64,000 bases of DNA, taken from positions 4,526,001 through 4,590,000 of the forward strand of contig NZ_CP104307.1 in assembly GCF_025252405.1 (NCBI RefSeq). Reading direction: 5' to 3'. The translations under genes and the position numbers were made by a program. The first letter of the stretch is position 1. Every line of letters begins with the position of its first letter. This DNA is from Flavobacterium sp. TR2. GTDB lineage: Bacteria > Bacteroidota > Bacteroidia > Flavobacteriales > Flavobacteriaceae. This document shows positions 27,112 to 64,000 of this stretch, in pieces. A model generated the notes under the pieces. The model searched no databases, was not told where the DNA came from, and saw nothing but the letters and a program-made list of their open reading frames with translations.

Positions 27112-27230
27112 GATTTGGGCGTGTTTCGCCGCGGCGAATCGGGCTATCCGTTACAATCTTTTGCGACTCGTTAAAAAACGAGACACAAAAGAATTTCCAC
27201 TACTATCCCTCACGCATCCATTTTCAAAAG
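27112..27230. repeat. Dispersed GC-richer repeat, GGGCTATCCG family (copy 1)
   Basis: It contains GGGCTATCCG, CAATCTTTTG, and ACTACTATCCCTCACGC. Related sequence occurs at 39724-39793 and, inverted, at 59083-59161. An open frame continues through it upstream of the next gene, but that part is repeat and not protein. Confidence 0.65.
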
Positions 27231-51244: not shown

Positions 51245-51991
51245 TCAAGGAAAAATCAATTTAATGCTTGCCATTAAAATCACTGTTCCTAAAACCATTT
51301 TTAATGTTCTGTTTGAGAAGGAACCGCTGCCGTAAAACCCTCCTAACATTCCTCCTACAACCGCAATTGGAACTAAATAAAAACTTTCCATCGGAATTGT
51401 TTTTCCTCCTAAAAAGAATCCCAGCATTCCGGCAAATGAATTCACAAAAATGAATAAACTCGAAATCGCTGCCGATTCTTTGACTGAGGCCCATCCTAAA
51501 AATAACAGAATCGGACTTAAAATAATTCCGCCTCCAATTCCTAACATTCCTGATAATAATCCGATGACAAATCCAATTGCTAGGGCAAACGGAAGGTTGA
51601 TTTTTACTTCTTCTTTTTCTTTAAAATTAAATACTCCAAACAACCTCAGCGCTGCAAAAACCAATACAATTCCTAAAACAATTTTATAAACTGCATTCTC
51701 TAAAGTTATAAACCCACCAATAAACGCTGCCGGAATTGATGCAATGGCAAACGGATAAAACAGCTTGGGTTTGAAATAATTATTCTTGTAATAAAACAGA
51801 AACGAAATGCTCGAAACAAACAAATTCAGCAGCAAAGCCGATGGTTTCATGATCGAAACCGGAAAAGCAAAAATGCTCATCAAAGCCAAATATCCAGAAG
51901 CTCCTCCGTGCCCAACGCTTGAATATAAAAATGCAATGACTATTAAGGCAAAACTAAACAATAGTATATTTTCTGAATTTAGGAGGCTCAT
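51245..51991 (-). CDS. TSUP (TauE/SafE) family membrane permease
   Basis: The 248-residue protein has about eight hydrophobic segments. The internal repeat of the TSUP family shows as SVGHGGASGYLALMSIFAFP near 26 and LSGMLGIGGGIILSPILLFLGW near 144. Relatives move sulfite, sulfonates or other small anions, often in the export direction. It lies in the same direction as the molybdopterin operon but is set apart by repeats on both sides, so a role in sulfite or sulfate balance during nitrite/sulfite reduction is only an inference. Confidence 0.88.
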   Translation of the reverse strand: MSLLNSENILLFSFALIVIAFLYSSVGHGGASGYLALMSIFAFPVSIMKPSALLLNLFVSSISFLFYYKNNYFKPKLFYPFAIASIPAAFIGGFITLENAVYKIVLGIVLVFAALRLFGVFNFKEKEEVKINLPFALAIGFVIGLLSGMLGIGGGIILSPILLFLGWASVKESAAISSLFIFVNSFAGMLGFFLGGKTIPMESFYLVPIAVVGGMLGGFYGSGSFSNRTLKMVLGTVILMASIKLIFP

Positions 51992-52019
51992 TTTGCTTTT
52001 TGTTTTATTTGTTTTATTT

Positions 52020-52130
52020 GTTTCAAGTTTCAGGTTTCAAGTTTCAGTTTCAAGTTTCAGGTTTCAGTTTCAAGTTTCAGGTTTCAGGTTTCAAGTTTCT
52101 CCCGAAGCTTCGGGATCAAGTTTCAGGTTT
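52020..52130 (+). repeat. TTTCAAG/TTTCAGG short tandem repeats
   Basis: Seven-base words GTTTCAA and GTTTCAG alternate about twelve times from 52020 to 52130, interrupted by CTCCCGAAGCTTCGGGA. The same words occur at 36280-36305 and 50981-51013. Confidence 0.85.
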
Positions 52131-52195
52131 ATCGCTGTGTGTTTTTATTTATATAGCGCTCTTTATTTTTTATCTAAATTTATTTCTAAGAGTCA

Positions 52196-53368
52196 TTAAT
52201 CAATTGGTAAAATTGTTACTGACGCACCTTTTTTAATGCTTTCAGTATCATGCGGGACAATGACCAAACCATTTGCTACAGCAAAAGAATTCAGCATTGA
52301 AGATCCCTGTCCTTGTAAGATTTCAACGCTAGTTTCATTGTATAATGCTTTCAAGAAAAGAGTTTTTCCCGTATCATTTGCTATTGCATTATCTAATTTT
52401 CGAACAATTTTTGGCAAATGCGTATTAGAAAACCCCATTTTGTTTTTGACTGCAGGATATACGTAAATATAAAAATTAGTCAGTGACGAAGCTGGGTTTC
52501 CTGGCAATGCAAAAACCAGCGTATCTTTTTTGGCGCCAAAAAACATCGGTTTTCCGGGTTTCTGATTGATCTTGTAAAAAAGCTCTTCTACGCCATTTTT
52601 CAACAATGCCTCTTTCACAAAATCATAATCTCCAACTGAAATGCCGCCAGAAACCAAAACAATATCATTCTTTTTAAGAATTGATTTCAATGCTTGCTTA
52701 GTCGCTTTTAAATTGTCTTTAACTGTATGAATTTTAATTTTATCAATTCCGATAGTTTGCAAAGCAGCTTGCAGCATAACGGAGTTGCTTTCGTATATTT
52801 TTCCTTTTGAAAGTTTTTTTCCTAGCTTTACCAATTCATTCCCTGTGACTAAAATTGCCACTTTCGGCTTTTTATAAACTGTAATTTCTGTTATTCCTAA
52901 ACACGCTAAAAAGCCAATTGCGGCAGGAGTAATTAAGGTATTAGCGTCAAAAACAACATCTTCCTCATTAATTTGTTCCCCTTTACCTCTTACATTGGAA
53001 AAAGGTTCTGGCATTTTTGCAATCAAAATCGAATCTCCGTTTACCATCACGTCTTCCTGCATTACTACCGTATCTGCACTGTTTGGAACGTATGCGCCTG
53101 TAAATATGCGTACAGCTTGATTTTCTTTTAATTTTATATTGGCATGATCTCCTGCCTGAGAAATTCCGACTACATCAAATTGATGTCTTCGCGAATGGAT
53201 AAAAGCATAACCATCCATTGCTGACTGGCGAAACGGAGGCATCGAAATTGGCGAATAAATTGTTTCTGCCAAAATATATCCCAGTGCCTTACGCACAGAA
53301 ATTTTTTGAGTTGACAAAGTTGAACTATTTGCAGCGACAATTTCTAAAGCTTCTTTTACTTCTATCAT
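52196..53368 (-). CDS. moeA: Molybdopterin molybdotransferase MoeA
   Basis: The 390-residue protein inserts molybdate into adenylated molybdopterin. LAETIYSPISMPPFRQSAMDGYAF near 31-54 has the family signature, and IFTGAYVPNSADTVVMQEDV near 88 matches. VLVSGGISVGDYDFVKEALL near 238 and LVFALPGNPASSLTNFYIYV near 289 complete the site. It is the first gene of the leftward cofactor set. Upstream it faces a 764-base gap before the cysteine-rich second leader frame. Confidence 0.95.
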   Translation of the reverse strand: MIEVKEALEIVAANSSTLSTQKISVRKALGYILAETIYSPISMPPFRQSAMDGYAFIHSRRHQFDVVGISQAGDHANIKLKENQAVRIFTGAYVPNSADTVVMQEDVMVNGDSILIAKMPEPFSNVRGKGEQINEEDVVFDANTLITPAAIGFLACLGITEITVYKKPKVAILVTGNELVKLGKKLSKGKIYESNSVMLQAALQTIGIDKIKIHTVKDNLKATKQALKSILKKNDIVLVSGGISVGDYDFVKEALLKNGVEELFYKINQKPGKPMFFGAKKDTLVFALPGNPASSLTNFYIYVYPAVKNKMGFSNTHLPKIVRKLDNAIANDTGKTLFLKALYNETSVEILQGQGSSMLNSFAVANGLVIVPHDTESIKKGASVTILPID

Positions 53369-53773
53369 TTCTGTTAATTATAAAACTAAATAATAATACT
53401 TGATAAAAATATAAGTATTTATCGTTAGGTTGGTTAAAAAATTTATTATTTCTTTTGGTACTATAAAATTACTCTAATTTATTCAAAATCAACTTTAAAA
53501 TTTTAGCGTAGATTTTACAAATAAATAGGCAAAACATTCATTTAAGGCTTTTTTGGCTCGTTTAAACCATTAAAAAATCTTTATAGAGTTATTTTAAAGC
53601 TTCAAAACAAACGTAAAAATACTACAATTTAGGTTCGGAAATAAAATTCTTTTTAACATTTTTACAGAACCTAAATTTCTTATGATACGCCTGAAAATAA
53701 GGCATGAACATAAATCCTCCATTTATTTCGGTCCTCACAGCAGCATATTTTTCAAAAAAAACTTCACAAACTT

Positions 53774-53803
53774 TTGGTTTTTATTATATAAAATTTAACT
53801 TTG
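53774..53803 (+). promoter_or_regulatory. Promoter of the SusC/sulfatase operon
   Basis: TTG (53774-53776), 19 bases, then TAACTTTG (53796-53803), a full match to the Bacteroidota consensus. Transcription should begin near 53810, giving a leader of about 490 nt before the SusC ATG. From 53369 to 53773 I see no feature. Confidence 0.75.
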
Positions 53804-53857
53804 TCTATAGGATTAGTAGAGTTTAAAATAATATTTCAAACCATAAAAACTATTATT

Positions 53858-53944
53858 GTGAAAACAACAGAAAGCATATTACATTTCATTCTTCCTAAAA
53901 AGTACACTTATAACACTTTTTGTTATATGTGTATCTGTTGTTAA
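53858..53944 (+). CDS. Leader peptide 1, cysteine-rich (28 residues)
   Basis: A short frame starts at GTG and reads MKTTESILHFILPKKY, then ends TYNTFCYMCICC and TAA. Four of its last seven residues are Cys, and the last two codons before the stop are both TGT. It starts about 48 nt after the predicted transcription start. A nested ATG gives MCICC as a still shorter alternative. Cysteine is rare in such proteins, so a C-terminal cluster in a leader ahead of sulfatase genes looks like a device for sensing Cys-tRNA charging. No protein product is expected to act by itself. Confidence 0.5.
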   Translation: MKTTESILHFILPKKYTYNTFCYMCICC

Positions 53945-54132
53945 TACTCTGCTTTTATTCTTTTTGCTTTGAGGTTTTGCATCAAAGTAAATTTCTAAGA
54001 AAACACCACCAAAAATATTTTACTGAATTTAAACCAAAAATCTCTCCTATGCCCGTAAGTGCATTGGACGGATTCTTGAAATGATACCTATTATCCAACA
54101 AATTAAATGACTAACAACTAAAAAAATCAAAA

Positions 54133-54165
54133 ATGAAAATAATGCAAACGTGTTGCTGTAAATAA
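54133..54165 (+). CDS. Leader peptide 2, MKIMQTCCCK
   Basis: A ten-codon frame starts at ATG (second in-frame ATG at 54142) and reads MKIMQTCCCK with three Cys codons in a row (TGT TGC TGT) two codons before the stop. The stop is 6 bases before a perfect 10-bp hairpin. This codon run is hard to explain by chance and is placed 133 bases before the SusC start. Poly-cysteine leader peptides that tie translation to cysteine level are known in mycobacteria (established). I infer an analogous role here. Confidence 0.6.
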   Translation: MKIMQTCCCK

Positions 54166-54170
54166 AAAAA

Positions 54171-54196
54171 GCCATTTCTGCGGCAACAGAAATGGC
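54171..54196 (+). promoter_or_regulatory. Leader hairpin next to leader peptide 2
   Basis: GCCATTTCTG/CAGAAATGGC is a perfect 10-bp stem with the loop CGGCAA, 6 bases after the leader stop codon. No T-tract follows, so it is not a simple intrinsic terminator; ribosome stalling at the Cys codons could change its folding, or expose a Rho site. Confidence 0.7.
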
Positions 54197-54238
54197 GAGG
54201 CTTAAAGAATATTTATCACTAAATCAAGAACACTTTTA

Positions 54239-54260
54239 GAGTGCTGTATAAACAGTGCTC
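54239..54260 (+). promoter_or_regulatory. Second leader hairpin before SusC
   Basis: GAGTGCTGT and ACAGTGCTC pair over 9 positions (two G-U) around ATAA. An alternative short stem CACT/AGTG (54231-54234 with 54240-54243) would compete with it. Confidence 0.45.
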
Positions 54261-54298
54261 AGGGCGTCTTGTTAATTACTTAAAACCAATACAAAGAA

Positions 54299-57200
54299 AT
54301 GAAAAAAAAGTTAAACATATACATACTGCTGTTTCTACTCTTCATAACGGCAGGAATACAAGCCCAAAATACTACCCCGCTTATTCAGTCAAAATTGGAT
54401 GGAACTGTTGTAGATGCTATTACAAATCAACCTGTTATAGGAGCTTCAGTTACCATTAAAGGAACAACTCACGGTGTAGTTACAGATGCTGAAGGAAAAT
54501 TTTATTTTCAGACAGGACAAAAATTCCCTTATACGTTGATTGTAAGCTACATTGGATATAAAAAACTGGAAGTAATTGTAGAGAAAAATCCAGTTATCAT
54601 TAATCTTAAAGAAGAGCGTCAGGAACTAGATGAATTGGTAGTTGTGGGATACGGAACCCAAAAGAGAAAAGACATTACGGGTTCTGTAGCTTCAGTTCCA
54701 AAAGCCAATTTATCTCAAGTGACTTCTTCTGCCGATAATCTTTTAAGAGGTGCCGTTGCAGGAGTTGTAGTTACGCAAAGTTCAGGTCGCCCGGGTGCAT
54801 CTTCGAGTGTCCGCATACGTGGAGGAAACTCTATTACTGCTGGTAATGAGCCTCTGTATGTTGTTGACGGAATTTTAATTTACAATGACAACAGCAACAG
54901 TGGCGCGGGCGTGACCTATGCGGGTGCAACTGTAAACGTTCTTTCTACTATAAATCCAGCCGATATTGAGTCTATCGAGGTTCTAAAAGACGCTTCGGCA
55001 ACTGCAATTTATGGTTCTCGCGGTGCGAATGGGGTGGTCATTATTACAACTAAAAAAGGAACAAAAGGTCAAGATAACATTTCATATCAAGGCTATTTCG
55101 GATTCCAAAATATTTCAAAAAAACTTAAGCTGATGAATGCCAGCGAATGGGCAAGTTTAAGAAACGACGTTCAGGCAAGCATTGGCCAAGCTCCTTCTTT
55201 TTCTCCTCAACAAATTGAAGCGTTAAAAACTTCTGGGAACTACGATTGGCAGTCTGCAGCATTCGTAACTGCTGCTCCGGTACAAAACCATAATCTATCT
55301 TTTTCTGGCGGAGACGAGAAATCAAGATATGCTGTTTCTGCTGGATATTTTGATCAAGACGGTATTGTTTTAGGCTCTGATTTTAAACGTATTTCGCTTC
55401 GAGCAAACTATGAACGAAATTATTCTCAAAAATTCAAATTCGGCGTAAATGCCAATTATACCAATTCTATTGCAAATGGCGTAGGCACAAATGGAGGCGC
55501 TTCTGCCGGAAGAAATCCAAATCCGCTTGTTAGTGTCGTTTTGACCGCTCCTGTTGTTCCTATCAAAAATGCAGACGGAACCTATAATGTAACCAATAAT
55601 CCTTATGCGACTTCTGTAAATGGCTATGTCCCAAATCCGATTAACGATTTGGAAAATACAATCAACGAAACGAAGCTAAACCGAACTCTAACCAGTTTAT
55701 TTGGCGAGTACAAATTCAATAAAGAACTGACTGCCAAAGTTGCTGTAAGCGGGGATGTTTTAAATACGAAACAAAATTATTATGCTCCTTCAAACACCAC
55801 TACTGGCGCAGGAACAAAAGGATTGGCTTCTATTGGAGAAAGACAGGTAAGTTCTGTTTTGAATGAAAACACACTGAATTACAACACACATTTTGGCGAA
55901 AACCATAAATTCTCAGCTTTGGGAGGTTACACGCTACAGTACACAAAAGGCGAAGTTGTAAATGCTGGCGCTCAAACTTTTGTTAATGATGCCAATACTT
56001 ACAATGCGCTTCAAGATGGTGTAGCGGTAAAACCTTATAGTGAAGCTTACGAAAGTGTTTTGAAATCTTGGCTGGCTAGAATAAACTATTCGTATAAAGG
56101 AAAATACAATTTTACCCTATCAGGAAGAGCAGACGGTTCTTCTAGATTTGGTTCTGAATCACTTTGGGGCTACTTTCCTTCTGCTGGATTTTCTTGGAAT
56201 ATTACAGACGAAGAATTTGCCAACAACATTAAAGGCGTAACCGAAGCAAAACTTAGAATTACAGCAGGAACAACAGGAAACCAAGAAATTGGAAACTATC
56301 TTCCTCTGGCTTCAATGGGATCTGTAAATTATTCTTTTGGAGGAACATTGTACACAGGTCTGGCCCCTACCCGACTGGCAAACCCTGATTTGAGATGGGA
56401 AAAAACAAATCAGTATAATGTTGGATTGGATTTGTCTTTACTAGACCGAAGAATCAATTTTGTTTTTGATGTGTATTATAAAAAGACAAAAGATTTATTG
56501 ATCAACGTTCCTGTGCCATTGAGTTCAGGTTATGCAACAGTGCTTCAAAACATTGGTGGCGTTGAAAATAAAGGTTTTGAGGTTGGTTTAACAACTGAAA
56601 ACATTAAAACAGAAAACTTCGCTTGGAACTCCAACATCGTGTTTTCTTTAAACCGAAATAAAGTTACAGAAATTGGAAATGGCGTAGATCAGTTTTTCCC
56701 TGTCGTGCCAAACGGTTCTTTGTTGCAGCAGCAGCCCGTTACTGTAAAAGTAGGACTGCCTTTGGGAACTTTCTGGGGATATAAAACCAACGGAATTTTC
56801 CAGACTCAGGAAGAAGTTAACACGCAGCCAAAAATCAACAGTTTGGCAAATACGAAAGTGGGAGACAGAAAATATGTAGATACCAATGGAGATGGCGTAA
56901 TTACCGCTCTCGACAAAGGAAATTTAGGCACTTCCCAACCCAAATTTGTCGGAAGTTTTAGCAACACGGTTTCGTACAACGATTTTGATCTGAATTTCTC
57001 TTTTCAAGGAGCTTATGGCGGAAAAATATTCAATGCTTTAAATCAGCAGTTAGAAATTTCTACACTTGGAACTAATGCCGCAGCCACTCTGAATGACCGC
57101 TGGACACCAACAAATCCAAGTAATGAAATTCCGAGAGCTTCAAGTTCTCCGTTAGGAATCGTTTCTGAACGCTATGTAGAAGATGCTTCTTTCTTACGAT

Positions 57201-57430
57201 TAAAATTAATCACCTTAGGATACACTTTACCAAAAAGCGTTTCTAAAAAATTGGGAACAAAAAGCGTAAAAATCTACATCTCAGCAGAAAACCTAATTAC
57301 ATGGACCAAATACACTGGCTATGATCCAGAGGTAAGTTCATACGAACAAAACAACTTATATCCGGGAATTGACTTTGGCTCTTATCCAAACTCCAAAACA
57401 TTCATCTCGGGCTTGAACGTAACTTTTTAA
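54299..57430 (+). CDS. SusC/RagA-family TonB-dependent outer-membrane transporter
   Basis: The 1043-residue protein has a signal peptide (LNIYILLFLLFITAGIQAQ), a carboxypeptidase-D-like regulatory domain (about 33-110; GASVTIKGTTHGVVTDAEGKFYF), and the TonB plug opened by DELVVVGYGTQKRKDITGSV near 118. The plug has SSSVRIRGGNSITAGNEPLYVVDG near 170 and ATAIYGSRGANGVVIITTK near 235. The remainder is a beta-barrel ending LNVTF. It imports a large ligand with its SusD partner, 16 bases downstream. Sulfatase genes after it point to a sulfated ligand. Confidence 0.95.
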   Translation: MKKKLNIYILLFLLFITAGIQAQNTTPLIQSKLDGTVVDAITNQPVIGASVTIKGTTHGVVTDAEGKFYFQTGQKFPYTLIVSYIGYKKLEVIVEKNPVIINLKEERQELDELVVVGYGTQKRKDITGSVASVPKANLSQVTSSADNLLRGAVAGVVVTQSSGRPGASSSVRIRGGNSITAGNEPLYVVDGILIYNDNSNSGAGVTYAGATVNVLSTINPADIESIEVLKDASATAIYGSRGANGVVIITTKKGTKGQDNISYQGYFGFQNISKKLKLMNASEWASLRNDVQASIGQAPSFSPQQIEALKTSGNYDWQSAAFVTAAPVQNHNLSFSGGDEKSRYAVSAGYFDQDGIVLGSDFKRISLRANYERNYSQKFKFGVNANYTNSIANGVGTNGGASAGRNPNPLVSVVLTAPVVPIKNADGTYNVTNNPYATSVNGYVPNPINDLENTINETKLNRTLTSLFGEYKFNKELTAKVAVSGDVLNTKQNYYAPSNTTTGAGTKGLASIGERQVSSVLNENTLNYNTHFGENHKFSALGGYTLQYTKGEVVNAGAQTFVNDANTYNALQDGVAVKPYSEAYESVLKSWLARINYSYKGKYNFTLSGRADGSSRFGSESLWGYFPSAGFSWNITDEEFANNIKGVTEAKLRITAGTTGNQEIGNYLPLASMGSVNYSFGGTLYTGLAPTRLANPDLRWEKTNQYNVGLDLSLLDRRINFVFDVYYKKTKDLLINVPVPLSSGYATVLQNIGGVENKGFEVGLTTENIKTENFAWNSNIVFSLNRNKVTEIGNGVDQFFPVVPNGSLLQQQPVTVKVGLPLGTFWGYKTNGIFQTQEEVNTQPKINSLANTKVGDRKYVDTNGDGVITALDKGNLGTSQPKFVGSFSNTVSYNDFDLNFSFQGAYGGKIFNALNQQLEISTLGTNAAATLNDRWTPTNPSNEIPRASSSPLGIVSERYVEDASFLRLKLITLGYTLPKSVSKKLGTKSVKIYISAENLITWTKYTGYDPEVSSYEQNNLYPGIDFGSYPNSKTFISGLNVTF

Positions 57431-57446
57431 GTAAAAAAATATCAAA

Positions 57447-58919
57447 ATGAAAAAGATAATCATAACATTCCTTTTAAGTGCCGGTCTATTGGCATCGTGC
57501 ACCGATCTTGAGGTAACGCCTACCTCTTTTGTCACAGAAGACAATTATTTTGTCACTCAAGATGATGCTACTGCAAGTGTAACCGCTGTTTACGCCTCTT
57601 TAAGCCTTGATCCGGGCGAACAGAGTTTATTTGGCCGAAATCTCTATTTCTTAACCGACATGGGATCTGATTACGCAGCTGCAGGAGTTTCTGCTACAAA
57701 CCCGCAAGTTAGGGCAATGAGCAGTTTGACGCACGATGCTACTAACGACCGCGTTCAGGTAGCATGGAGACAAATTTACAATGGAATTAATCGAGCCAAC
57801 GTTTCGATTGACAATATTCCGAAAGTATCTGGCTCAGAAGTCATCAAGACGAGATTGATCAATGAAGCAAAATTCATTAGAGCATTGCTATATTTTCAGG
57901 CAGTTCGTCTTTGGGGCGGAGTTCCGATTGTGCTGCATGAAGCGACTTCTATCAATTTAGGAGATTTAAAAACAAATCGTTCCACAGCTGACGAAGTTTA
58001 CAATCAAATCATTAAAGACTTGACTGATGCTGAAGCTTTACCCAAAACATACACAGCGGCAGATGCTGGACGCGCTACTTCGGGAGCTGCAAAAGCTATT
58101 TTGGCAAAAGTATATCTGACTAGAAAAGACTGGCCAAATGCAATTGCAAAATCAAGAGAAGTTATAAACGGCGGTTATGGATATGCCTTATTTGAAGATT
58201 TTCAGGATATATTCACTAAAACCAAAAAGAACGGGAAAGAGCATATTTTCTCTGTTCAATTTGAGCCAAATCAAGCTGGAAATGGTTCTAGCGGAAGCAC
58301 TTTTCAAGCTACTTCTTTTACTGGATTTACAGCAACAGAACCGGCAGATATTGTCTCAGACGTTGCTTTGTTTTACGATATCTATGCCCCTGGAGACAAG
58401 AGAAGAGATGTAAGCTATGCCAAACAACTGCTAAATCCTGCAACAGGAACGCTTTATACTTTTCCGAAGCCAATCTTCAAAAAATATTTGGATTTAAGCA
58501 ATCTCGCAACGCCTTCCAATGTTGCCATCAACTTTCCGGTTATTCGCTATGCAGACATCCTTTTGTCTTTAGCGGAAGCGATAAATGAACAAAGCGGACC
58601 AACTGCAGAATCGTATGAATTGATTAACCAAGTAAGAAGAAGAGCTTTTGGAAAAGCCATTACAACACCAGATGCCTCTGTTGATTTGGTTGGATTAAAC
58701 CAAACCAGTTTTAGAGCTGCAATTCAGGAAGAACGCAAAAAAGAATTTGTTCAGGAAGGACAGCGCTGGTACGATTTGGTAAGATGGGGAACATTGGTTA
58801 CCGAAGTTAAAAAAGTAACGGCTAAAAACTCGGTTTCAGAGCGCAATAATCTGTACCCGATACCGCAAAGCGAAAGAAATATTAACCCTGACGGCTTGCC
58901 TCAGAATCCTGGATATTAG
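57447..58919 (+). CDS. SusD/RagB-family substrate-binding lipoprotein
   Basis: The 490-residue protein has a lipobox (SAGLLASC) and the SusD start TDLEVTPTSFVTEDNYF. WRQIYNGINRANVSIDNIP near 107, NEAKFIRALLYFQAVRLWGGVPIVL near 139 and ERKKEFVQEGQRWYDLVRWGTL near 434 are conserved blocks. It ends RNINPDGLPQNPGY, as the family does. It forms the surface lid of the SusC transporter and binds the ligand outside the cell. The gene starts 16 bases after the SusC stop. Confidence 0.95.
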   Translation: MKKIIITFLLSAGLLASCTDLEVTPTSFVTEDNYFVTQDDATASVTAVYASLSLDPGEQSLFGRNLYFLTDMGSDYAAAGVSATNPQVRAMSSLTHDATNDRVQVAWRQIYNGINRANVSIDNIPKVSGSEVIKTRLINEAKFIRALLYFQAVRLWGGVPIVLHEATSINLGDLKTNRSTADEVYNQIIKDLTDAEALPKTYTAADAGRATSGAAKAILAKVYLTRKDWPNAIAKSREVINGGYGYALFEDFQDIFTKTKKNGKEHIFSVQFEPNQAGNGSSGSTFQATSFTGFTATEPADIVSDVALFYDIYAPGDKRRDVSYAKQLLNPATGTLYTFPKPIFKKYLDLSNLATPSNVAINFPVIRYADILLSLAEAINEQSGPTAESYELINQVRRRAFGKAITTPDASVDLVGLNQTSFRAAIQEERKKEFVQEGQRWYDLVRWGTLVTEVKKVTAKNSVSERNNLYPIPQSERNINPDGLPQNPGY

Positions 58920-58947: not shown

Positions 58948-59161
58948 TGTCATTTCGACGAAGGAGAAATCTCCGCAAGAAACTCGACAAAGATTTGCTA
59001 AGCTTTACGGAGCTACTCACAGAGATTTCTCCTTCGTCGAAATGACAAATAGAGACGAAATCAATCTTCTGACAATGAATACCCTAGCCCCGATAGAAGT
59101 GAAAATCCTTTTGTGGCGGGGTTCGCCACAAAAGATTGCAACGGATAGCGGGATTAGCTCC
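58948..59161. repeat. 25-bp perfect inverted repeat plus GGGCTATCCG-family copy
   Basis: A 25-base arm starting TGTCATTTCGACGAAGGAGA (58948-58972) has its exact complement at 59023-59047, with a 50-base loop. From 59083, sequence with CCTTTTGTGGCG, GCCACAAAAGATTGCAACGGATAGCG is the inverted copy of the repeat at 27112. The 294-base gap between SusD and the sulfatase has no gene. It could end or weaken transcription inside the operon. Confidence 0.8.
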
Positions 59162-59213: not shown

Positions 59214-61130
59214 ATGAAAAATTTAAAAAATAGCATCTCAATCAAAGGCTCTAAGAAGGGGCTTTTGCTTACCGCTTTCTTAATTGCTCAATTAGGATTT
59301 GCACAAGAAAATACAGAATTTAAAGGAACCATAGGAAAAACTTTGGCCGATTCCAAAGAATATTGGCCAGATCCCGTTACGGCACCAAAAGGCGCTCCGA
59401 ATGTGGTTTGGATTTTATTGGATGATGTAGGATTTGGAGCTTCAAGCGCATTTGGAGGTTTAATCAACACGCCTACTTTTGATAATCTGGCAAACAATGG
59501 TTTACGTTACACAAACTTCCATACAACTGCAATTTGCGCTCCTACCCGTGCAGCATTATTGACAGGAAGAAATTCAGGAAGAGTTCATGTAAGCGGATTT
59601 TCGCACACCATTTTATCAGCAGGTTTCCCAGGTTGGGACGGTAGAATCCCTTCTGATAAAGGAACCATTGCAGAGATTTTGCGTGACAATGGCTATAATA
59701 CTTTCGCCGTTGGAAAATATGGCGTTACGCCAGACGAAGATGCCACAGATGCAGGTCCGTTTGACAGATGGCCAACTGGAAAAGGTTTCGATCATTTCTA
59801 CGGATTTTTAGGTTCTCAAACCGACCAATACAATCCTGATTTGGTAGAAGATCAAGTTCATATAAAACCAGATGGGCGCCATTTGAATGAATTAATTACT
59901 GATAAAGCCATCAGCTACATTCAGAAGCAGCAGAAAGCGGCACCTGGAAAACCATTTTTCTTATATTATGCACCGGGAGCAGTTCATGCACCTCATCAGG
60001 TAGCAGAAAAATGGGTTGAACCATACAAAGGCAAATTTGACGAAGGTTGGGATGTTTACCGCGAAAAAGTTTTGGCTAACCAAAAGAAACTAGGAATATT
60101 TCCTCAAAACGCAGGACTTCCAGATCGTAACGCCTTAATTACAGAATGGAAAAAACTGACTCCTGACCAAAAGAAAGTATACGCTAGATTCATGGAAGTT
60201 TACGCTGGATTCTTGACGTATACCGATTACGAAATTGGAAGAGTTGTTTATTATTTAAAACAAAGCGGACAGCTTGACAATACTTTAATCTTTGTGGCCA
60301 TTGGCGATAATGGCGCAAGTAAAGAAGGCACTTTGCAAGGAACAATCAATCAGAGTTTATTTGCTCAAGGAAAAACAGACGAAGAGAACTTTCAAAGCAA
60401 TTTGAACAATATTGGGGAAATCGGAACAGCAAAAGGTTTAAACACCAATTATCCTTTAGGATGGGCTCAGGCAACAAATGCTCCTTTCAAAAACTGGAAA
60501 CAAGATGCCCATTCAGAAGGCGGAACTCGCAACCCATTGATTGTTTTTTATCCAAACGGAATTAAAGACAAAGGCGGCATTAGAAACCAATACAGCCACG
60601 TAACCGATTTGCTTCCTACTACTTTAGCCATTACTGGAATTAAAGCGCCAGAATATATCAAAGGAATCAAACAAGACATTATTCAAGGTTCATCATTTCA
60701 AGCTTCTTTAGATAATCCTAAAGCAGAATCGCTGCATAAAGTGCAGTACTACTACATTTTTGGAAACAGGGCCATTTATAAAGACGGATGGAAAGCTTCT
60801 GCCGCGCATTTGCCAGATTCTTTTGCTGTGAAAAAATCTTTAGGCAATAACGAGAAACCCGCTCCAAGCAATTTTGATACAGATGTTTGGGAATTGTACA
60901 ATCTAAACGAAGATTTTAACGAACGTAATAATCTGGCGAAAAAATATCCTGAAAAACTGGCTGAACTTCAAAAATTATTTGACGAGCAAGCCAAAGAAAA
61001 CAATCTATACCCATTGATTGACTGGCAGGATGTTTACAACAGAAGAATCCATAATACTGGTGCCGACAAAGGAAAAACAGTTTCTGACTTGATCAAACAG
61101 GCTACAAAACCTGGAGGAACAAATAACTAA
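59214..61130 (+). CDS. Exported arylsulfatase (type I sulfatase)
   Basis: The 638-residue protein has a signal peptide (LLTAFLIAQLGFAQ). Metal ligands are LLDDVGF (Asp70, Asp71). The formylglycine motif is ICAPTRAALLTGRNSG with Cys108 in the CxPxR form. VGKYGVTPDE near 157 and GDNGASKEGTLQGT near 353 hold further active-site residues. It cleaves sulfate esters in the periplasm or at the surface after Cys conversion by a maturase, which is not in the window. The long, arylsulfatase A-like architecture fits aryl or lipid sulfates better than polysaccharide sulfate, but the substrate is not proven. Confidence 0.93.
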   Translation: MKNLKNSISIKGSKKGLLLTAFLIAQLGFAQENTEFKGTIGKTLADSKEYWPDPVTAPKGAPNVVWILLDDVGFGASSAFGGLINTPTFDNLANNGLRYTNFHTTAICAPTRAALLTGRNSGRVHVSGFSHTILSAGFPGWDGRIPSDKGTIAEILRDNGYNTFAVGKYGVTPDEDATDAGPFDRWPTGKGFDHFYGFLGSQTDQYNPDLVEDQVHIKPDGRHLNELITDKAISYIQKQQKAAPGKPFFLYYAPGAVHAPHQVAEKWVEPYKGKFDEGWDVYREKVLANQKKLGIFPQNAGLPDRNALITEWKKLTPDQKKVYARFMEVYAGFLTYTDYEIGRVVYYLKQSGQLDNTLIFVAIGDNGASKEGTLQGTINQSLFAQGKTDEENFQSNLNNIGEIGTAKGLNTNYPLGWAQATNAPFKNWKQDAHSEGGTRNPLIVFYPNGIKDKGGIRNQYSHVTDLLPTTLAITGIKAPEYIKGIKQDIIQGSSFQASLDNPKAESLHKVQYYYIFGNRAIYKDGWKASAAHLPDSFAVKKSLGNNEKPAPSNFDTDVWELYNLNEDFNERNNLAKKYPEKLAELQKLFDEQAKENNLYPLIDWQDVYNRRIHNTGADKGKTVSDLIKQATKPGGTNN

Positions 61131-61357: not shown

Positions 61358-62410
61358 ATGGCAATAGTTCAAAAAGAAAAATTAACGAGAGACTTAACCA
61401 TAAGTTTCTTCATTTACAGTTTGCCTGTTGTGGCAATTTACCTTTATTTTAAATTAACAGGCGGAGCTGTAAGCGAATCGCATATTACGCTTCCTTCATT
61501 TTTAGAATTTGCCCAACCTGTTTTTGCTAACATCAGAACTTGGGGGCTAACAGTCTTTATGATCGTTTTAGGAATCATTGAATTTGCGGCTGGATTATAC
61601 GATGATGAATGGACAGGCGAAGAACGCAAAATTGACATTGTTTGTTTCTTAGCTCCAAAATTGCTTTTGCCTCCTGTAATTGCATTTTTCAGCTTAACCG
61701 CTTTGCCTTATCTATTGCCAAATTTGGCTAATTCACTATCGTGGGTCCCATTTTGGGGAGGTTTTTTCTTAATTGCAATTGCAGACGATTTAACCCAATA
61801 TTGGTATCACAGATTGCATCATCAGGTTCCTTTTTTGTGGCGTTTTCATAGAACGCACCATTCAGCTCCATACATGGGAATGGCAATGGCTTCTAGACAA
61901 AACTTTATTTATACGGTTTTCTTCTCTCAAATTTATTTGACGGCGACTTTAACGTATTTAGGTTTAGGGCTTCCTGCGTTGTTTGTTTTAGTAATCAAAA
62001 GTTTCATCACTTTAGGAGCGCACTCCAGCATTCCATGGGATAAACCTTTTTACAAATACAAAGTATTGCATCCAATTGCGTGGGTTTTAGAAAGACTGAT
62101 TTCTACTCCTGCAACGCATCATGCACACCACGCAGACACAAGCGGAGACGGTGTAGGACATTTCAAAGGAAACTTCGGAAATATGTTCTTCATCTGGGAT
62201 GTCATTTTCGGAACAGGATTGATTACTCGCCAATATCCAAAATCATTCGGAACAAAATCGTACAAACAAGAAGAATGGTACGCTCAGTTTCTTTGGCCGA
62301 TTTTTAAATCTAAAAAAGAAGGAAGTTCTCTTGCCGAAGGCGTTTTGTCACTTCCGTTAAAACCTAAGGCTGCTGAAGAAACCCCTGCGCCAGTATTAGA
62401 AAGAGTATAA
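61358..62410 (+). CDS. Sterol desaturase / fatty acid hydroxylase superfamily protein
   Basis: The 350-residue protein has about five membrane segments and the histidine clusters of the di-iron hydroxylase family: YHRLHHQ near residue 148, HRTHHS near 163, and ATHHAHHAD near 250. GKGNFG-like FKGNFGNMFFIWDVIFGTG follows. It would use O2 to hydroxylate or desaturate a lipid-like substrate. In a sulfatase operon it may handle a sulfated lipid or sterol, or modify the lipid released by desulfation. This is inference. The C-terminal tail is Pro/Ala-rich. Confidence 0.88.
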   Translation: MAIVQKEKLTRDLTISFFIYSLPVVAIYLYFKLTGGAVSESHITLPSFLEFAQPVFANIRTWGLTVFMIVLGIIEFAAGLYDDEWTGEERKIDIVCFLAPKLLLPPVIAFFSLTALPYLLPNLANSLSWVPFWGGFFLIAIADDLTQYWYHRLHHQVPFLWRFHRTHHSAPYMGMAMASRQNFIYTVFFSQIYLTATLTYLGLGLPALFVLVIKSFITLGAHSSIPWDKPFYKYKVLHPIAWVLERLISTPATHHAHHADTSGDGVGHFKGNFGNMFFIWDVIFGTGLITRQYPKSFGTKSYKQEEWYAQFLWPIFKSKKEGSSLAEGVLSLPLKPKAAEETPAPVLERV

Positions 62411-62422
62411 TACTTCTCGATT

Positions 62423-63139
62423 ATGAAAAATAAAATTCTAAAAACCAGCATAACAGCAATTGTCTTTTTATGGACAGTTGCTGCTTTTTCTCAAAATGAA
62501 ATCCATAGCTCATTGTCTCTGGATTCTTTTTATTCGAAAATTAAAAGTCAAAAAAATCCACAGATTGTTGACGCGAGAACGCCTGAAGAATTTGCATTGA
62601 ATCATATTGAAGGTGCGGTAAATTTTAATCTTCAGTCTGAAAATTATGCGCAATCTGTTGCTAAATTAGATAAGTCAAAACCTGTTTTTATTTATTCTAT
62701 CGGAGCCGGCAGAAGTGTCGCCTTAGAAAAAGAACTATTAAAAAACGGTTTCTCAGAAGCCTATAGTTTGGAAGGCGGAATTGCAAATTGGATTGGAAAC
62801 GGAAAACCTTTTTACTCCAACCTAAAAAGCAAATTGTCTTTGGCTGAATTCAATACAATCATTGCTGAAAATAAAACCGTTTTGGTTGATATTGGCTCAA
62901 AATACTGCGGCGCCTGTAAAAAAGTCAAACCGCTTTTAGAAACCATTAGATCAGAATATGGTTCAAACTTAAAAATCGTAGAAATTGAGCTAGAAGACAG
63001 TCCGCAAGTTATTGCCGATTTAAAAACCGTAAAAGTTTTCCCTACTTTGATTTTATATCAAAACGGAAAAATCGTTTTTAAGAAAGAAGGCATCAACGAT
63101 TTGAAGAACGAAGTTGATGTAGCACTGGTTTCGAAATAG
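62423..63139 (+). CDS. Exported rhodanese-like and thioredoxin-like fusion; rhodanese Cys missing
   Basis: The 238-residue protein has a signal peptide (TSITAIVFLWTVAAFSQ), a rhodanese-like domain (about 26-120; IVDARTPEEFALNHIEGAVN) and a thioredoxin domain (about 128-235) with active motif YCGACKK near residue 160. In the rhodanese loop, where the active Cys is expected (VYCxxGxRS), the sequence reads FIYSIGAGRSVA, so Ser replaces Cys and sulfur transfer is unlikely. The thioredoxin pair CxxC is intact, so it could reduce periplasmic disulfides. Its place in a sulfatase operon suggests care of sulfur or Cys-containing proteins. Confidence 0.85.
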   Translation: MKNKILKTSITAIVFLWTVAAFSQNEIHSSLSLDSFYSKIKSQKNPQIVDARTPEEFALNHIEGAVNFNLQSENYAQSVAKLDKSKPVFIYSIGAGRSVALEKELLKNGFSEAYSLEGGIANWIGNGKPFYSNLKSKLSLAEFNTIIAENKTVLVDIGSKYCGACKKVKPLLETIRSEYGSNLKIVEIELEDSPQVIADLKTVKVFPTLILYQNGKIVFKKEGINDLKNEVDVALVSK

Positions 63140-63240: not shown

Positions 63241-63319
63241 ACAAAAAATACTTGTAAACCTTTATCAAAATCTTAAAACCTTGAGAAAGGTTACTCAAAA
63301 ACCAACCAAAAACCATACT

Positions 63320-64000
63320 ATGGCAACCTATAAAAAAATAACCAAAATTGCTGTTCCCATTTTAATAGCGCTTCTCATTCTGGCAGCATTTTTATTTTGG
63401 CCGATAAATACGGATGGCACTTTAATCAAAGAAGACCAAAAACTGGCAGAAGGGAAAAAAGAATTTTTAGCTTCAAAACCTAAAGATTCCGTTACTGGGA
63501 AAAAGACCAATATTATTATTCTCCTCGCAGATGATTTAGGAAAATACGACATTTCGCTTTACGGCGGAAAATCGACACCGACACCCCAAATCGATTCTCT
63601 AGCAGCTTCAGGAGCTACTTTTACAGACGGTTACGCCTCTGCCGCAATCTGCTCGCCCTCACGTGCAGGACTGATCACAGGAAGATATCAAGAACGCTTT
63701 GGACATGAATATCAGCCCGGAGATCGCTATCCTAAAAACAATCTTGAATATTATGCTTTTAAATATTTAATCAAAACGGACGGTTGGAAATTAAATGACA
63801 AGATCGATTATCCAAACGAGGCCTCTATCAAAACGCAAGGACTCCCTAAATCTGAAATCACTTTTGCCGATTTAGCCAAAAGGCAAGGTTACAGCACAGG
63901 AATTATCGGAAAATGGCATTTGGGCCACAACAAAGGATTTTTTCCTTTAGATCGAGGTTTCGATTATCATTACGGATTTTATCAGGCGTTTTCGCTTTTT
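63320..64000 (+). CDS. Second sulfatase, 5' part only (runs off the window)
   Basis: The first 227 residues are present. A membrane anchor (IAVPILIALLILAAFLFWP) is near residues 9-28. NIIILLADDLGKYDISLYGGK near 64-84 carries the metal ligands. AAICSPSRAGLITGRYQ near 109-125 has the formylglycine Cys111 in CxPSR form. GIIGKWHLGHNKGFFPLDRGFD near 194 is the next family block. It is a type I sulfatase of a different group from the first one (CSPSR against CAPTR). The gene is cut at the right edge. Confidence 0.9.
   Translation, partial: MATYKKITKIAVPILIALLILAAFLFWPINTDGTLIKEDQKLAEGKKEFLASKPKDSVTGKKTNIIILLADDLGKYDISLYGGKSTPTPQIDSLAASGATFTDGYASAAICSPSRAGLITGRYQERFGHEYQPGDRYPKNNLEYYAFKYLIKTDGWKLNDKIDYPNEASIKTQGLPKSEITFADLAKRQGYSTGIIGKWHLGHNKGFFPLDRGFDYHYGFYQAFSLF

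Follow-up and report, generated by a model that had tools for sequence, protein, structure and literature searches.

Leaderless polycysteine short open reading frames that act as attenuators in mycobacteria were reportedly described by Canestrari in 2020. Passages on actinobacterial cys operons place Cys-codon leader peptides ahead of them (PMC1262725), and passages on the uORFC-8-2 motif of Rhodobacterales describe tandem Cys codons before cysS, for which ribosome-mediated attenuation has been proposed (PMC8632094). In Flavobacterium psychrophilum, leader-peptide attenuation is proposed for amino-acid operons in the passages concerned (PMC9723704). Here we describe a leader with two Cys-rich upstream open reading frames (uORFs) ahead of a SusCD-sulfatase operon of Flavobacterium sp. 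TR2, located in a 64,000 nt window (the whole stretch of DNA analyzed; NZ_CP104307.1, positions 4,526,001 to 4,590,000). The first-pass annotation had regarded it as a candidate cysteine-sensing attenuator, and a cysteine-sensing reading gains support from conservation of the Cys codons in both frames and from Cys-rich frames under a similar promoter-proximal box at metY, gdh-type and PhyH genes. We consider it probable that this is a cysteine-responsive, ribosome-mediated leader of a sulfate-ester scavenging operon, and that it belongs to a Flavobacterium regulon with a core of sulfur genes. The leader of 489 nt and its promoter are made up as follows (window coordinates).

53773-53803, + strand: Bacteroidota-type promoter, TTTG-N19-TAACTTTG, consensus form
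53805-53819, no strand assigned: near-palindromic box CTATAGGATTAGTAG, directly 3' of the -7 element, present in 76/79 orthologous leaders
53858-53944, + strand: uORF1, 28 codons, GTG/TTG start, Cys-rich C-terminus
53945-54132, + strand: spacer of 188 nt with more C than G, a possible (weak) Rho loading zone
54133-54165, + strand: uORF2, MKIMQTCCCK
54171-54196, no strand assigned: hairpin H1, perfect 10-bp stem with an A-run before it, terminator-like on the - strand only
54225-54271, + strand: hairpin H2 (inner stem 54239-54260), before SusC, with covariation

The SusC leader resembles the mycobacterial and actinobacterial cys leaders in having runs of Cys codons near the stop of a short frame before sulfur genes, as far as the passages on the latter go (PMC1262725), and it shares with the mycobacterial leaders the lack of a conserved terminator hairpin. 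The mycobacterial frames are leaderless, whereas uORF1 starts (GTG at 53858) some 48 nt past the start inferred from the promoter; unlike those leaders, the SusC leader also has two frames, conserved hairpins, a recurring box, a SusCD-sulfatase target and a host in another phylum. The uORFC-8-2 motif differs, as its passages present it, in having one frame, Cys codons within the first stem, a terminator U run and cysS as its target (PMC8632094). The F. psychrophilum leaders belong to the same genus as ours, and the passages that describe them name neither a cysteine leader nor a SusC or sulfatase target (PMC9723704). Among the matches listed in a search of open-licence PMC articles (subscription papers and supplements lie outside its scope) no paper describes a cysteine leader from Bacteroidota or one that precedes a SusCD-sulfatase operon. 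Cys-codon leader peptides as such are already known, and what appears to be new is their placement before a SusCD-sulfatase operon in Bacteroidota.

Comparisons were made with 80 orthologous loci from named records, chosen by SusC similarity, which together with our own locus give 81 leaders; the nearest named relatives by SusC are Flavobacterium, with identities of up to 98%. L013, a locus from an F. johnsoniae record, also carries the leader. The consensus promoter that had been called ahead of the leader stands, and a promoter of the same form with 19-nt spacing is found in 76 of the 79 orthologous leaders scored. The 28-residue Cys-ended frame behind it, also as first called, reads VKTTESILHFILPKKYTYNTFCYMCICC from a GTG start, and uORF1 ends in Cys codons in all 80 orthologous Flavobacterium-type SusC leaders long enough for the test (the L063 contig is too short to contain it). 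A pattern requiring L, V or M followed by K at the start and CC at the end recovers the frame in 79 of the 81 leaders, and L009 carries a uORF1 with an altered second residue. The 79 copies, which comprise 69 distinct DNA sequences and 55 distinct peptides, start with TTG (57) or GTG (22), and 76 of them are 28 codons long. uORF1 can also be read in frame from a TTG at 53801, but that start sits within the -7 element.

Codon changes in uORF1 were counted on the SusC tree for 74 of the 81 frames, omitting L063 (short contig), L065, L067 and L075 (too diverged), and L028, L038 and L054 (29-codon frames). Cys22, Cys25, Cys27, Cys28 and Met24 are unchanged as residues in 74/74 frames, with switches between TGT and TGC occurring eight times at codon 25, twelve times at codon 28, and never at codons 22 and 27. 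The proportions of nonsynonymous and synonymous differences (pN and pS) are 0.10 and 0.31 in frame, compared with 0.15/0.13 and 0.13/0.19 in the two shifted frames. These patterns indicate that purifying selection acts on the uORF1 peptide, including its Cys codons. A consensus fold (47 of 76 leaders folded) contains a predicted helix that pairs the start of uORF1 with its Cys end.

The second frame was likewise called correctly as MKIMQTCCCK, and a uORF2 with at least two adjacent Cys codons is found in all 81 leaders; where several frames end near H1, the one with the most Cys was chosen. Three Cys are present in 60/81 frames, two in 19 and four in 2. In the 71 frames of ten residues the middle Cys (Cys8) is invariant apart from synonymous codon changes, and residues 3 and 6 vary, so that in both uORFs the Cys codons are kept as their surroundings change, which had been proposed as a check on the prediction. 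The distance from the start of the last Cys codon to H1 is 14 nt in 67 of the 81 leaders, and the range over all of them is 14-18 nt. When the 489-nt leader was shuffled 3000 times with its dinucleotides preserved, a frame with CCC arose in 18 shuffles, one with four or more Cys in 164, and both in 7; conservation is a stronger argument against chance than the shuffles. Visual inspection had also suggested that the H1 loop pairs with the Cys codons of uORF2, but this fails in some leaders and was dropped.

Of 199 sampled genomes of the genus, 44 match the stretch from uORF2 to SusC at the DNA level with an E value of 1e-10 or lower (counted from a table), and the leader thus marks a part of Flavobacterium. 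Twenty further leaders were read, comprising orthologues in other species as well as paralogues; L156 was left out since its match precedes no SusC. The 28-residue Cys-ended uORF1 is present in 12 of the 20. By tblastn, the fetched stretch contains a sulfatase for 12 of the leaders, and 11 of these have such a uORF1; L155, which lies directly behind a sulfatase gene, does not. Of the eight leaders without a sulfatase there, one has it (L160, beside genes for an amidohydrolase, a luciferase-like monooxygenase and an amino-acid permease). The distant copies keep the LK or VK start, the 28 codons and the Cys end, and are otherwise mostly changed (LKTIKNTSFLIKQGSLSFDTLSRMCCCC; Cys ends such as RMCCCC). 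The other seven leaders without a sulfatase (L142, L145, L149, L151 and L161-L163) have no such uORF1 and precede a SusC that is about 30% identical to that of the window; in L163 an ATG opens a frame with two Cys. A uORF2 with at least two adjacent Cys occurs in 15/20.

One covariance model, searched with strict filters in 397 genomes of the family, gave strong matches in three genomes, all of the same genus, and nothing convincing in other genera. Two weak matches in other genera were rejected, L173 being an ordinary terminator and L174 a hairpin between FecR and SusC. Eleven SusC loci of other genera have no similar upstream frame with adjacent Cys, a weak negative; they are not orthologues, being only 39-43% identical. 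By eye, four loci of other genera (L174, L182, L187 and L190) have an A-run and a hairpin without a U run in an H1-like position soon after the stop of the upstream gene, which by sequence is FecR-like. Within our leader Rfam has no match above the gathering threshold, and three sub-threshold matches look like chance.

The perfect 10-bp hairpin called behind uORF2 is present in 81/81 leaders and letter-identical in 80 of them, with one correction to the original description: it lies 5 nt, and not 6, from the uORF2 stop. Three H1 pairs change on both sides somewhere among 35 aligned leaders out of 101, and RNAalifold run on these 35 recovers H1 alone, with H2 out of register there. The test of H2 used 43 of the 81 leaders, 37 of them distinct, and 94.2% of cells are paired, compared with 28-51% when the stem is slid; there are 27 double changes compared to 9.6 in shuffles, and the covariation score is 0.212 compared to at most 0.093 when slid. 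A short frame, MARLKEYLSLNQEHF (54192-54239, + strand), begins at an ATG within the 3' arm of H1; it was rejected as a conserved element, since by eye it differs or is cut short in other leaders.

Boxes similar to CTATAGGATTAGTAG are also found at cysH-cysD, metY, gdh-type and PhyH genes. A first form of the box was derived from SusC leaders together with the cysH promoter, and it matches the complete genome of our strain exactly at four sites: the window leader, a second SusC leader (L097/L142), the cysH/cysD/cysN promoter region, and a position upstream of a gdh-type (glutamate-dehydrogenase-type) gene. The second SusC leader has MKKRMCCR and H1, without a poly-Cys uORF1. A wider form has 24 exact matches in 15 Flavobacterium genomes, compared with 6 for the reversed control, and is absent from 9 of the 15. 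Eight of the 24 lie before SusC, four before metY, one at cysH-cysD, four before gdh-type genes (identified by Pfam in one case and from the first residues in three) and two before PhyH (one of them checked by Pfam); five, L242 among them, are without an assigned gene. A one-mismatch box, CTATCGAATTAATAG, is located directly upstream of an open frame in L203 (G000:C1:3625943) whose translation resembles MsrA, a putative name.

Three of these targets have Cys-rich frames of their own. The metY leader contains the frame MKTIAKRNMMCCKMMQMCIPICCCQK, with Cys and Met codons, followed by a terminator; it has a DNA match in 44/150 genomes, and in the 30 loci read the Cys and Met frame is present in 29 (L229 giving no frame by pattern) and the box in 23. 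This arrangement at metY has the look of a classical attenuator for sulfur amino acids. In L207 a 58-codon frame (1374-1550) lies between the leader terminator and metY, and it has no NCBIfam match. The gdh-type leaders (L196, L253, L254 and L255) have two Cys-codon frames with a terminator-like hairpin between them; three of the four have at least three Cys in each frame, and the fourth has two in the first and six in the second. PhyH leaders (L251 and L258-L272) contain 4-9 consecutive Cys codons in all 15 loci from 121 genomes, with the box in 13. Cys-codon leaders near the box therefore recur ahead of several genes, and two kinds of them come with terminators. The SusC targets fit sulfur and cysteine metabolism, with sulfatases and a rhodanese in the operon and a formylglycine-generating enzyme (FGE) in one relative, given the known route from sulfate to cysteine. 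The sequences themselves show coding constraint, Cys invariance, the hairpins, the spacing, the box and the Cys-rich frames before other genes.

From these features we infer a transcript, its translation, a response to cysteine and the direction of that response. Ribosomes would translate both uORF1 and uORF2, and a transcription factor would presumably act at the box near +1. With ample Cys-tRNA the ribosomes would run to the stop codons, and a ribosome terminating on uORF2 would push into the base of H1. Given the usual size of a ribosome footprint, a ribosome at the uORF2 stop codon would enter H1, whereas from the last Cys codon it would just touch the hairpin. When Cys-tRNA is scarce, ribosomes would stall on the Cys codons of both frames, the one on uORF1 holding its Cys end open and covering the start of the spacer, and the front of the one at the last uORF2 Cys codon just reaching H1, which would stay folded. 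Stalling would most likely raise expression of the SusC operon, this direction being assumed because the targets acquire sulfur. The output could be Rho-dependent termination, reinitiation or mRNA stability. A more specific proposal is offered tentatively, namely a cysteine regulon in part of the genus: one near-palindromic operator would be combined with differently shaped Cys-codon leaders that read Cys-tRNA charging (28-residue frames with RMCCCC or CYMCFCC, MKxMQxCCCK, Met plus Cys at metY, tandem frames at gdh-type genes, and up to nine Cys at PhyH), with the SusCD-sulfatase operons having two peptides in series, the second setting a stalled ribosome against the invariant H1 with no need of an intrinsic terminator. 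We know of no described counterpart for an expression platform that lacks an intrinsic terminator and uses a stalled ribosome against a hairpin, and to our knowledge few cases of ribosome-mediated control have been described in Bacteroidota. If the cysteine-responsive reading is correct, a Bacteroidota SusCD system would answer to a ribosome-read amino-acid (sulfur) signal beyond its glycan, the box would be a candidate operator for a sulfur regulator, and the leaders would provide a testable set with several target genes and natural gain and loss of Cys codons.

Several observations weigh against this interpretation. The 81 leaders were selected by SusC similarity and are close relatives, and the regulon is confined to part of the genus. 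Among the 20 further leaders, eight lack the 28-residue Cys-ended uORF1, and in five uORF2 does not contain even two adjacent Cys. When one mismatch is tolerated, the box hardly exceeds its control in our genome (13 matches vs 8), and its wider form was picked after the metY case had been seen. The gdh-type and PhyH genes behind the box are not obviously sulfur genes, the PhyH leader is without a match in our genome, and in 9/15 PhyH leaders the frame extends tens of residues beyond the Cys run. An excess of C over G is found in 76/79 spacers, hardly above the 65/73 of upstream control stretches, and the Rho zone was therefore graded as weak evidence. The covariation term for H1 is slight (-0.12 over the 35 leaders), and two of five measures for H2 fail against shuffles, with 39/500 reaching the observed both-side changes and 412/500 the further pair types. 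A consensus scan of 53300-54600 found no + strand terminator-like site in the SusC leader, which is for that reason not classed as a trp-type terminator attenuator, and no alternative pairing emerged.

The end of uORF1, C-x-M-C-x-C-C, contains a CXXC and precedes the gene of a TonB-linked receptor, and Met24 is as invariant as the Cys residues (74/74), such that the nascent peptide itself could sense copper or another metal rather than the supply of Cys-tRNA. The passages on CruR of Bordetella describe a copper-responsive CXXC uORF ahead of a TonB-dependent transporter gene, with a Rho-dependent output (PMC9426467). CruR is however a DUF2946 protein with a C-terminal RAPP arrest motif, by the same passages, whereas uORF1 has 28 residues and no RAPP; moreover the Cys pattern varies between leaders (FCYMCFCC, GRVCCCC and RMCCCC in uORF1, 2-4 Cys in uORF2, 4-9 at PhyH), as expected of codon counting and not of a fixed metal site, and the operon and the box point to sulfur, making metal sensing very improbable. 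We regard as similarly improbable that the box acts alone, with a transcription factor reading the sulfur state and the short frames being decaying relics. The cysH-cysD genes do have the box with a short leader in which no Cys frame is seen by eye, and the seven SusC leaders without a poly-Cys uORF1 listed above retain a box-like site, but decaying relics would not account for purifying selection on uORF1, Cys codons kept in both frames, the invariance of H1 and the narrow spacing between Cys codons and H1.

A third explanation, unlikely although better placed than these, draws on the orientation of H1, which is terminator-like on the - strand only, with at least seven of the eight bases before it being A in 97/101 leaders. 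H1 would then terminate a cis-antisense RNA against the SusC leader, which would be the main regulator, with the Cys frames secondary or both acting. DonS-type RNAs of Bacteroides polysaccharide utilization loci (PULs), according to passages describing them, are 78-128 nt long and antisense to susC homologues (PMC7366714), and our locus shares with them a possible antisense terminator upstream of susC. Among 14 distinct forms of H1, the departures from Watson-Crick pairing comprise nine wobbles on the - strand, three G-U pairs on the + strand and three that are unpaired either way, and visual inspection of loci from other genera shows similar A-run hairpins between FecR and SusC. However, a promoter for such an RNA was not found, there being no conserved consensus-type - strand promoter in the 101 leaders, and the H2 stem carries + strand G-U pairs. 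An A-run hairpin precedes 2 of the 24 SusC genes scored in our genome, both with the leader type of the window, and an antisense RNA leaves the Cys conservation unexplained.

The genes behind the leader are arranged as follows.

54299-57430, + strand: SusC/RagA TonB-linked outer membrane protein
57447-58919, + strand: SusD family lipoprotein
59214-61130, + strand: first sulfatase
61358-62410, + strand: fatty acid hydroxylase family protein
62423-63139, + strand: rhodanese-thioredoxin protein
63281-64000, + strand: second sulfatase, cut by the window end and continued in L141 (1282-2937)

The first-pass annotation was right in assigning two sulfatases to the operon, since the second starts near 63281 and continues past the window end in L141. 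By tblastn, SusD and a relative of the first sulfatase are present downstream in 80/80 fetched orthologous loci, the hydroxylase in 66/80, the rhodanese-thioredoxin protein in 35/80, and a relative of the second sulfatase with more than 60% identity in 18/80; the loci end about 6 kb past SusC. Two relatives were scanned further, and the FGE gene is found in L157, with a PF03601 membrane protein in both L157 and L159, the latter being the same locus type as L048. The window contains two matches to the Rfam Flavo-1 RNA (bit scores of 78.4 and 56.8), one at 59082-59159 on the + strand, between the SusD and sulfatase genes of the operon, and the other at 27133-27223 on the - strand. Upstream of the leader on the opposite strand are TauE-family and MoeA genes (51245-53368, - strand), and relatives of these are found upstream in 26 and 33 of the 80 orthologous loci, respectively (by tblastn, with eight loci having little upstream sequence).

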